64,000 bases of DNA from contig NZ_CABVHU010000013.1 in the NCBI RefSeq assembly GCF_902497855.1, positions 1 to 64,000 of the forward strand, read 5' to 3'. Origin of the DNA: Pseudomonas fluorescens. Its GTDB lineage: Bacteria; Pseudomonadota; Gammaproteobacteria; Pseudomonadales; Pseudomonadaceae. Each line of letters starts with the position of its first letter. Positions within the stretch are counted from its first letter, which is position 1. A model generated the notes under the pieces. The model did no database searches. It was not told the DNA's origin and saw only the letters and a program-made list of their open reading frames with translations. Below are positions 39,933-56,619 of the stretch, piece after piece. Position numbers and translations under genes: made by a program.

Positions 39933-40006
39933 GATAACCTTGTCCCTTTGTCGTCAACGGTCCCGCTATTCTAGCGCCGGACCCGCCGAAAAGGTTGATC
40001 CTGCTC

Positions 40007-42775
40007 ATGAGCCAAGCCCCCCTCGTCCTGGTGGACGGTTCTTCTTACCTGTATCGCGCGTTTCACGCCCTGCCACCGCTCACCACGTCCAAAGGCCTGC
40101 CGACCGGTGCGGTCAAAGGCGTGTTGAACATGCTCAAGAGCCTGCGCAAGCAGTACCCGGACAGCCCGTTCGCCGTGGTGTTCGACGCTAAGGGCGGGAC
40201 ATTCCGCGACGAAATGTTCGCCGAATACAAAGCCAACCGTCCGAGCATGCCCGATGACATGCGCGTCCAGATCGAGCCATTGCACGCCAGCGTCAAGGCC
40301 CTGGGCTTCCCGTTGTTGTGCGTGGACAACGTCGAAGCGGACGACGTAATCGGCACCCTGGCCCGCAGCAGCGCCGCGGCCGACCGCCCGGTAGTGATCT
40401 CCACCGGTGACAAGGACATGGCGCAACTGGTCGACGGGCACATTACCTTGGTCAACACCATGACCGGTAGCGCGCTGGATGTGGAGGGCGTGAAGGAGAA
40501 ATTCGGCGTCGCTCCCGAGCAGATCATCGATTATCTGGCGCTGATGGGTGATTCGTCCGACAACATTCCGGGCGTTCCGGGCATCGGTCCGAAGACCGCT
40601 TCCGGCCTGTTGGTGGGCGTGAATGGCGGCCTGACCGAGCTCTACGCGCAGCTCGATATCGTGCCGACCCTGCCGATACGCGGGGCCAAGACCCTGCCGG
40701 CCAAGCTCGAAGAGCACAAGGAGATGGCGTTTCTCTCCTACCGGCTGGCGACGATCAAGATCGATGTACCGCTGGATGTCGGCCTGGACGACTTGCAAAT
40801 GGGCAAGCCGGACCACGACAAGCTCGCCGAGCTCTACACCCTGCTGGAATTCAAGAGTTGGTTCGAAGAGAACCAGCGCGACGCCAAACGTTCGGGGCAG
40901 GACATTGTCGAGGTCGTCGACGAGCAACCGGGCGCCGTCGAAGCGAAGTACGAGACCATCCTCGACCAGAAGCGCTTCGAGGCCTGGCTGGACAAGCTCG
41001 CCAAGGCACCGCTGATCGCTTTTGTCACCGAGACCAATGGCAACGATGCCCAACACTCGCAACTGGTGGGCCTGTCGTTTTCCGTCGCGGCCAACGAAGC
41101 GGCCTACATCCCGCTGACCCATTCCTACATGGGCGTGCCGGAACAACTGGATCGCGACACGGTGCTGCTGGCGCTGAAGCCGCTGCTGGAAAACCCGAAT
41201 AAATTGAAAGTCGGCCAGCACGCCAAGTTCGAAACCAACATCCTCGCCAATTGCGCCATCGGTGGCGATCAGAGCAACGGGATTATCGTTCAGGGTATTG
41301 CCTACGACACCATGCTCGAGTCTTACGTACTCGACTCGACGGCCACCCGTCACGACATGGACAGCCTGGCGCTCAAGTACCTGGGCCAAAGCAAGACCGA
41401 CATTCACGAGATCGCGGGCAAAGGCGTCAAGCAGCTGACCTTTGACCAGATCTCCCTCGAGCTGGCGGGCCCCTATGCCGCCGAAGACGCCGATGTCACC
41501 TTCCGCCTGCACCTGGCCTTGCAGGAAAAACTGGCCGCCACGCCAAGCCTGGGCAAAGTGCTGAACGAGATTGAAATGCCGCTGATGCCGGTACTGGCCC
41601 GTATCGAACGCCAGGGCGCGCTCGTGGACGCCAACCTGCTGGGCATCCAGAGCGTCGAGTTGGGCGAGAAACTGGTCGCCCTGGAGCGGGAAGCCTTTGC
41701 CATCGCCGGTGAAGAATTCAACCTCGGCTCGCCGAAACAGCTGGGGGTGATCCTTTACGAAAAGCTCGGCTTGCCCGTTCTCAGTAAAACCGCCAAGGGC
41801 CAGGCCTCGACGGCCGAAGCGGTGTTGGCCGAGTTGGCCGAACAGGACTACCCGCTGCCCAAGGTGCTGATGCAGTACCGCTCGCTGAGTAAACTCAAAA
41901 GCACCTATACCGACCGTTTGCCGGAGCAGATCAACGCTCGCACCGGCCGCATCCATACGTCTTATCAGCAAGCCGTTGCCGCCACCGGACGCTTGTCGTC
42001 GATCGATCCGAACCTGCAGAACATTCCGATCCGTACCGCCGAAGGCCGGCGGATTCGTCAGGCATTCGTCGCGCCAAAAGGCTACAAACTGCTGGCCGCG
42101 GACTATTCGCAAATCGAACTGCGGATCATGGCTCACCTGGCCAAGGACGAAGGCTTGCTGTACGCCTTCCGCAACGACCTGGACGTGCACAAGGCCACGG
42201 CGGCGGAGGTCTTCGGGGTCGAGCTGGACGCGGTCACCACCGACCAGCGGCGTAGCGCCAAGGCGATCAATTTCGGTTTGATCTACGGCATGAGCGCCTT
42301 TGGCCTGGCCAAGCAGATAGGCGTCGATCGCAAGCAATCCCAGGCTTATATCGATCGCTACTTCACCCGTTATCCCGGCGTGCTGGAGTACATGGAGCGC
42401 ACCCGCGCCCAGGCCGCCGAGCAAGGTTTCGTCGAAACCATCTTCGGTCGTCGGCTGTATCTGCCGGAAATCAACGCGAAAAACCCGGCCCTGCGCAAAG
42501 GTGCCGAGCGCACGGCGATCAACGCGCCGATGCAAGGCACCGCAGCGGACATCATCAAGAAGGCCATGGTCGCCGTGGATAACTGGCTGACCTCGTCAGG
42601 CCTCGACGCCAAAGTCATCCTGCAGGTGCACGATGAATTGGTGCTTGAAGTGCGCGAAGACCTGATTGATAAGGTTAGTGAGGAAATTCGCGTGCACATG
42701 AGCGCAGCCGCGCAGCTGGACGTGCCGCTGCTGGTCGAGGTTGGGGTAGGCAATAACTGGGATGAGGCGCACTAG
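40007..42775 (+). CDS. polA: DNA polymerase I with altered proofreading site
   Basis: A 922-residue DNA polymerase I: 5' nuclease domain (about 1-295), 3'-5' exonuclease domain (about 320-520) and family A polymerase domain (520-922). The polymerase motifs A ([13 protein letters not shown]), B ([14 protein letters not shown]) and C (VHDELVLEV) are intact, and the 5' nuclease has its acidic cluster. In the exonuclease domain the first catalytic Asp (E. coli D355) is Val340 in AFVTETNG, and the third (D424) is Glu409 in AKFETNIL; the second (E342) and fourth (D494) acids and the Tyr of YAAEDADVT remain. Proofreading is therefore probably reduced or lost. The ATG at 40007 is used rather than an upstream TTG. 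Confidence 0.97.
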
Positions 42776-43028: not shown

Positions 43029-43159
43029 GAATGGCTGGTGAAGCCCTTCGATGCTCCTATGTTGTGTTAAGTGTTGGCAGATATCTGGACCCCGCCCTAA
43101 CGGTCCGGAGCTTGAACCCCGGAACTTCCCCCTCCCCATAGAAGTCCGGGGTTTTTTTT
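43029..43159 (+). ncRNA. ersA: Small regulatory RNA ErsA
   Basis: A sRNA of about 130 nt in the polA-engB gap, the location of ErsA in Pseudomonas and Spot 42 in E. coli. The 3' end is an intrinsic terminator: ACCCCGGAACTTC (43116-43128) pairs with GAAGTCCGGGGT (43141-43152), leaving a CCCCTCCCCATA loop and then eight T. The C-rich loop is suited to pairing with ribosome-binding sites. An internal stem GGACC/GGTCC (43087-43106) is also present. In P. aeruginosa ErsA is AlgU-dependent and represses algC and other envelope genes. The exact 5' end is inferred from the promoter. Confidence 0.88.
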
Positions 43160-43182
43160 GCCCGCGATTTGACCTGTCGACC

Positions 43183-55938: not shown

Positions 55939-56619
55939 CAAATGCGCTACCCGAGAACGGTAGACGCATGACCAAGGGGTCGGGATGTTCTGCCTGTTTC
56001 AGGGGCGGAGTGACCTACGGGTACATGGGGTGCCTGCGCGAGGGCCGGGTCAGGCAAAAAGCTGCGACGCAAGTTCGCCGATCACAGATGCTCGACGGAC
56101 TTGCGAAGAGCTTCTACGTGCAAAGCGTTGAATTAGAGCGATCCTCCCCATTTCGTCGCTTCACCCTCCAAAGATTGCCACGCCGCTTGGAAAGTCCTTT
56201 TCCGGTGGTCCACGCACGACCGTACATCGAGAAATATCAGCCCCCTTTTGCGGTTAATTTTCCCTGAAAATTGTCGGATTTTCCTGAAAAACACCCCTCG
56301 CCTGACTGATCAAAAAACAGTCAACCGGCCCTGAGATGGCCGGTTCACGGCACTTATGCCTGCCGAAATGTCGTATTCGAACCGGTTGGGACGCGAGTTT
56401 CACTATAAAAAGCTCATGCCGATTCGGCATAGGGTAGGCATTTACGGCATTAGACGTCGCTTCCTTGCATCGGAATAGTTGCGCCTTTTTTCGCCTGCCA
56501 GAGAGCCACTAACAAGCGCTCCGGGGTGCCTTATACGGGGGCAGATGCACAAGACTTTTTCGCCACAAGCGTTCCAGTTGCTGCATCGGCCTGAGTCAAA
56601 CGCAAGTAAGGGTAAAGAT
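55939..56619. other. 681-bp region without recognisable gene
   Basis: No convincing coding sequence: the open frames lack ribosome sites and any familiar motif. Structured elements are present: a bulged hairpin at 56059-56113 (CGCAAGTTCG pairing with CGGACTTGCG, flanked by AAGCT/AGCTT), a perfect 8-bp stem AACCGGCC/GGCCGGTT at 56323-56345, and ATGCCG-ATT-CGGCAT at 56416-56430 shortly before gltP. The first two could belong to an unannotated RNA; the last could be an operator or part of the gltP leader. Confidence 0.5.

Follow-up and report, generated by a model that had tools for sequence, protein, structure and literature searches.

A DNA polymerase I with a substituted proofreading site in Pseudomonas fluorescens and the probable exchange of its exonuclease domain within the genus

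The polA locus and its exonuclease active site

The window analyzed here, a stretch of 64,000 nucleotides of Pseudomonas fluorescens (contig NZ_CABVHU010000013.1, positions 1 to 64,000), carries on its forward strand the gene polA (40007..42775), identified by its open reading frame and Pfam domains as coding for a DNA polymerase I (Pol I) of 922 amino acids. Both the ATG start at 40007 and the stop ending at 42775 were upheld, the start given in the ORF listing being a TTG at 39995, 12 bases upstream. The protein displays the PolA1 architecture of 5′ nuclease and polymerase domains. It consists of the 5′-3′ nuclease domains PF02739 and PF01367 (residues 6-270; 40022..40816, + strand), a 3′-5′ exonuclease (exo) domain PF01612 with substituted catalytic residues (residues 315-509; 40949..41533, + strand), which matches its profile with an E-value of 1.7e-28 and a score of 100 bits (cut-off 23.6), and a polymerase domain PF00476 with intact motifs (residues 547-920; 41645..42766, + strand). 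The genome has no further Pol I, as the PolA protein has a single match there. An open frame of 854 codons antisense to polA (39971-42535, - strand) most likely results simply from the GC-rich codons of the gene. The Pseudomon-1/ErsA small RNA (43051-43167, + strand; Rfam RF01719, 130.4 bits) lies close downstream of polA, and an ivy-DE cis-regulatory RNA motif (RF02999, 91.6 bits) is found elsewhere in the window, at 55969-56060 (+ strand).

Residue equivalences were established by aligning the window PolA to the Klenow chains of the PDB, among which 1kln_A scored highest; this chain, which we take to be an engineered exo-minus protein, itself has Ala at D355 (E. coli numbering). The alignment pairs V340 with D355, E342 with E357, E409 with D424, Y490 with Y497, and D494 with D501, i.e., among the residues of an active DEDDy site D355 and D424 are replaced while E357, Y497, and D501 are present. 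D355 is the ligand common to both metals, and it is this ligand that is lost at Val340 (codon GTC, 41024..41026, + strand); Glu409 (codon GAA, 41231..41233, + strand) stands at the D424 position. Both substitutions had been named in the original prediction, and codons and Klenow alignment agree with it, as they do with its statement that the polymerase motifs are intact, the HDE motif being present in the same alignment. Two substitutions come in addition: Asn346 at the L361 position (41042..41044, + strand), which is hydrophobic (Ile, Leu, or Val) in 121/121 genes that have Asp at D355 (hereafter Asp-type), and Ile466 at the F473 position (41402..41404, + strand), which is Phe in all 121. The Exo III motif YAAED, spanning the Y497 and D501 positions, is retained (41474..41488, + strand). 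Phe at the Y423 position is not a mark of loss, being found in 73/121 Asp-type genes. An AlphaFold2 model of the exo domain is of low confidence (mean pLDDT 51.9).

Distribution and decay of the substituted domain

Although the original prediction concerned the Pol I of this strain, Val at D355 is common to many species and has a mosaic distribution. Among the best 80 loci kept from a scan of 531 named candidate relatives, the D355 position is Val in 36 and Asp in 44. The Val-type records among these 80 bear the names P. lini, P. mandelii, P. frederiksbergensis, P. farris, P. gregormendelii, P. violetae, P. brassicacearum, P. thivervalensis, P. kilonensis, P. corrugata, P. mediterranea, and others, and the Asp-type records include P. 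migulae, P. mucoides, P. helleri, P. lundensis, and P. chlororaphis. Asp is also found under the name P. mandelii in L048 and L052 and under that of P. frederiksbergensis in L056; since both names carry both types, species names are unreliable in this group. Alignment of PolA across Pseudomonas, suggested earlier as a check for a clade-wide trait, confirms that Val is widespread, but its carriers are scattered on species genes. A sequencing or assembly artefact of the strain, for which no supporting evidence was found, is ruled out for all practical purposes by the presence of Val in so many separately titled records.

Residues were scored in 233 (30+80+30+23+70) of the 398 genomes, one per species, that make up the genus sample. 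With group membership assigned partly from overall identity to the window protein, these comprise 36 genomes of group A, to which the window belongs, 29 of group B, one other partial loss, and 167 with all four carboxylates. Val occupies D355 in 65/233, a share that overstates its frequency because the queries ranked groups A and B to the top; it would be 65/398 if the 165 remaining genomes held none, and those may hold more. As in exo-inactive PolA1, substitution of the DEDDy site is therefore shared by relatives, be it counted among the best 80 loci or among the 233 genomes. The sequences of group B presumably resemble those of the P. syringae group. The other partial loss, G319 (L447), lies in another part of the genus and is the single case of its type among 70 extra genus genomes; it keeps D355 and D424, whereas E357 is replaced by Lys, L361 by Ala, F473 by Leu, and D501 by Glu. 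In G108 (L341), the four carboxylates are present in a polA open frame of only 728 aa vs. about 920-960 in the listed relatives, a difference that may come from a frameshift, a split gene, or a fault of the assembly.

Among other gammaproteobacteria, 105 of the 113 genomes searched gave a PolA match, and 69 of the 105 were scored (29 best, 20 middle, and 20 low-scoring loci, with six of the worst-scoring left out). All four carboxylates are kept in 65/69, the 4 exceptions all being among the 20 low-scoring loci. These four loci (L377, L379, L382, and L389) have lost two or three carboxylates, each in its own way, with the patterns DEVS, AEHN, NEDA, and RYDE at D355-E357-D424-D501.

Decay was followed in 204 distinct full-length genes (121 Asp-type, 54 of group A, and 29 of group B). 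Asp-type genes keep E357, D424, F473, Y497, and D501 in 121/121 cases each. Group A has Val at D355 in 54/54 genes and keeps E357 in 52/54, D424 in 5/54, and D501 in 54/54; for group B the corresponding figures are 0/29, 8/29, and 3/29. D424 is replaced by Glu in 49/54 group A genes and by Ala in 21/29 of group B, which also has Gln or Lys at E357 (29/29) and Glu at D501 (26/29). Within group A, L361 has become Gly, Ser, Thr, Asp, or Asn in 52/54 genes and F473 has become Ile in 30/54, and in a few Val-type members E357 or Y497 has decayed as well. Both V at D355 and N at residue 344 are common to the two groups. Positions conserved in at least 95% of Asp-type genes are changed more often in residues 301-525 than elsewhere, both in group A (9/127 vs. 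3/471, Fisher p = 8e-5) and in group B (10/127 vs. 9/471, p = 0.002). Judged from these sequences, the active site is decaying stepwise while the reading frame stays open.

The constraint on the domain was estimated by Nei-Gojobori dN/dS on up to 600 pairs per set, which are not independent, with pairs of dS outside 0.05-1.5 dropped. Mean values for the exo domain are 0.069 in group A and 0.113 in group B, vs. 0.034 in 28 matched Asp-type genes hand-picked from the same part of the tree; for the polymerase domain they are 0.034, 0.038, and 0.029, respectively. Because the exo domain also evolves faster than the polymerase domain in the 121 Asp-type genes taken together (0.158 vs. 0.084), the case for relaxed constraint rests on the matched set together with the active-site pattern.

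Conflicting trees and recombination tracts in polA

In a tree of the exo domain from 30 genomes, built with the motif columns removed, group A forms one clade (100/97) and group B another (95/88); the two are separate in this tree, but a single exo clade uniting them is not rejected (p = 0.108), and a common origin of both is conceivable. The distribution of states requires 2 changes on the exo tree of the 30 genomes vs. 7 on the polA ends (codons 1-239 and 760-921) and 7 on rpoB+gyrB, and across all 204 distinct genes 2 on the exo domain vs. 8 on the polA ends. The AU test rejects group A as one clade on the polA ends (1e-139), rpoB (6e-45), and gyrB (1.1e-6); on the combined rpoB+gyrB data of the 30 genomes, the constrained tree has a log-likelihood 418.5 lower (AU p = 2.3e-8). 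The domain tree hence conflicts with both the ends of its own gene and the species genes, as expected of an allele exchanged by recombination. Group B as one clade is likewise rejected on rpoB+gyrB, where G018, whose site is intact, groups with G334 of group B as its sister (100/100); the polA ends leave the placement of G018 unresolved. The G018/G334 pair suggests that group B may have undergone the same exchange process as group A.

Sister genomes of opposite type allow the exchanged tracts to be located. The trees of rpoB, gyrB, and the polA ends all pair G354 (Val) with G183 (Asp) as sisters (99-100 bootstrap). In 60-codon blocks the two differ by 0-4% in rpoB, by 0-9% in gyrB, and by 2-6% in the four blocks that open polA and the two that close it, vs. 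7-33% in polA codons 241-840. With G183 as the child, a three-sequence walk delimited a polA tract at codons 237-752 (217-752 with the other donor; p = 1e-4, the permutation floor), and the two G183 triples gave no signal in rpoB or gyrB. With G354 as the child the polA tract spans codons 295-745 (p at the same floor of 1e-4), together with a weak rpoB signal (p = 0.018). For G107 the tract spans codons 273/278-693/709, again at the floor (p = 1e-4), and for G210 as the child polA gave p = 0.019 with an ill-bounded tract (14-736). The G107/G210 triples are mosaic in rpoB as well (e.g., codons 351-970 with G000 as the second parent), and single-gene typing in this subgroup can therefore mislead. 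Among the controls, a Val/Val/Val triple was flat (p = 0.70), whereas two Asp/Asp/Asp triples showed short tracts (p = 0.016 and 0.0009); because of these control tracts and of the rpoB mosaic in G107/G210, general recombination is part of the picture.

The conflict of the group A exo clade with the flanks, rpoB, and gyrB, together with the divergence pattern of G354 and G183, argues that dead and live domains have been exchanged by recombination. Conflicting trees and breakpoints concur on the exchange itself, and its direction is a matter of inference. Because the nearest relatives of G183 by polA ends (G354, G000, and G366) carry Val, the simplest reading is that G183 descends from carriers of the dead domain and has taken an intact one back. 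The competing idea that each Val lineage of group A mutated D355 by itself, with no domain transfer, draws on the fact that Asp becomes Val by a single base change (GAC/GAT to GTC/GTT) and on the recurrence of exo-site losses in the genus, as in group B and G319. It is nevertheless highly improbable, given that the group A exo domain remains one clade even when the motif columns are removed, that it needs only 2 changes vs. 7-8 elsewhere, and that the divergence of G354 and G183 rises several-fold across the tract.

Proofreading and comparison with known systems

Proofreading has probably been lost from the window's Pol I. The loss is very likely because the site is deprived of two of its metal-binding carboxylates and because, in group A, nearby residues that contact the substrate are decaying too. 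The inference of poor proofreading made in the original prediction is thereby strengthened, and a precedent exists in Helicobacter pylori, whose Pol I (HP1470) is without D355, D424, and D501 and is without proofreading as a purified protein (PMC3121766). D424E is however a conservative change and 5/54 group A genes keep D424, so that residual activity is conceivable. A Val-type domain that still edits could use Glu409, Glu342, Asp494, and a shifted metal to keep a useful 3′-5′ activity, in line with the three acidic groups left in the window protein and with a domain that is open and under purifying selection. We regard continued editing as very unlikely, considering that the residue lost bridges both metals and that L361 and F473 decay along with it, as do E357 or Y497 in a few members. 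Klenow fragment is made exo-inactive by the double change D355A and E357A (PMC6457538).

In DnaQ, the replicative proofreader, the motifs DTETTG (Exo I) and HNAAFD (Exo II) are intact in 30/30 genomes, and as far as these two motifs tell, replicative editing seems to stand. The original prediction also held that mutation rates might be raised. Four-fold-site distances to five outgroup genomes, from rpoB+gyrB only, give no consistent signal of a lasting mutator: within the window's subgroup, the mean distances of 7 Val carriers (0.240-0.283) overlap those of 6 Asp genomes (0.251-0.307), and the two sister pairs point in opposite directions (G354, Val, 0.241 vs. G183, Asp, 0.262; G107 0.283 vs. 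G210 0.254). Three Val carriers of another subgroup, with no Asp-type sister in the set, are farther (0.295-0.327). Selection could still have favoured a non-editing Pol I, because it helps in lesion bypass or acts as a mildly beneficial mutator, with balancing selection keeping both versions. The coexistence and swapping of two versions across related species fit such an adaptive loss, as does the action in lesion bypass of the H. pylori and Bacillus subtilis Pol I enzymes that are without proofreading (PMC12926913; PMC3121766). However, the lack of a consistent rate difference at the four-fold sites speaks against it and neutral exchange gives the same pattern, which leaves adaptive loss unlikely, if plausible. 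Because the DnaQ motifs are kept and the four-fold sites give no consistent signal, a near-neutral or conditional loss is ranked ahead of a mutator strategy.

The account that we favour, and hold with good confidence as a whole, is that of a natural exo-dead Pol I whose group A domain has been exchanged by recombination in a genus where Pol I proofreading may be nearly neutral or conditional. Val at D355 and Glu at D424, which are observed, would prevent two-metal catalysis, and Pol I would then fill gaps and replace Okazaki primers without editing its own errors, extending or leaving mismatches. The exo domain, though presumably catalytically dead, remains an open, constrained sequence. A single origin would most simply explain the dead domain of group A, and the more decayed group B may be a separate or very old branch. 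Homologous recombination, in polA tracts about 1.2-1.6 kb long, would since have carried the group A domain from one species to another or put intact versions in its place. The persistence of this domain suggests that in Pseudomonas the loss of Pol I proofreading is close to neutral, or that such proofreading is of use only under some conditions, probably since most of the editing falls to DnaQ and mismatch repair and a Pol I that does not edit may pass lesions more easily. For the wider reading in which the genus can switch Pol I proofreading off and on, with two long-lived alleles crossing species borders and repeated loss and regain of editing, the chances appear to us evenly balanced. The exchange suggests that recombination can give back to a core replication gene the catalytic residues that it has lost.

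The apparent swapping of exo-dead and exo-live domains among many soil and plant Pseudomonas species offers a natural experiment on the part that Pol I proofreading plays in the fidelity of bacteria in nature. Since known Pol I losses follow phyla (PMC12926913), they lack near-identical controls. In Pseudomonas, sister genomes 0-4% apart in rpoB blocks differ in exo type, and mutation accumulation, damage tolerance, and fitness are therefore directly comparable. A survey of more than 3000 genomes found that about half of bacterial PolA1 have a substituted DEDDy site, the inactivation being largely phylum-specific and most cases lying in Firmicutes, Tenericutes, and Actinobacteria; the word "Pseudomonas" does not appear in the main text of that survey (PMC12926913). 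Titles and abstract openings in the literature searched, which mostly excluded subscription journals, gave no case in Pseudomonas of a Pol I exonuclease being lost or exchanged, and the available parts of PMC5544203 and PMC11253446 contain nothing on the subject.

The window PolA is an orthologue of E. coli Pol I with the same polymerase and exo domains, the proofreading residues being intact in E. coli. It shares with the engineered exo-minus Klenow enzymes (D355A; D355A+E357A) the first residue hit, but those are man-made and free of secondary decay. It resembles the Pol I of H. pylori in combining 5′ nuclease and polymerase with an exo domain in which metal carboxylates are missing; H. pylori, a species without translesion polymerases, has however also lost D501 (PMC3121766), whereas the Pseudomonas protein keeps E357 and D501. 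Unlike in H. pylori, one of two sister species in Pseudomonas may have the intact version and the other the dead one, and whereas the inactive DEDDy sites of the survey are distributed phylum by phylum (PMC12926913), here the state appears to vary within one genus by recombination. An exo-dead Pol I is thus of a known kind, and its apparent toggling, i.e., loss and regain by recombination inside one genus, is the new part.
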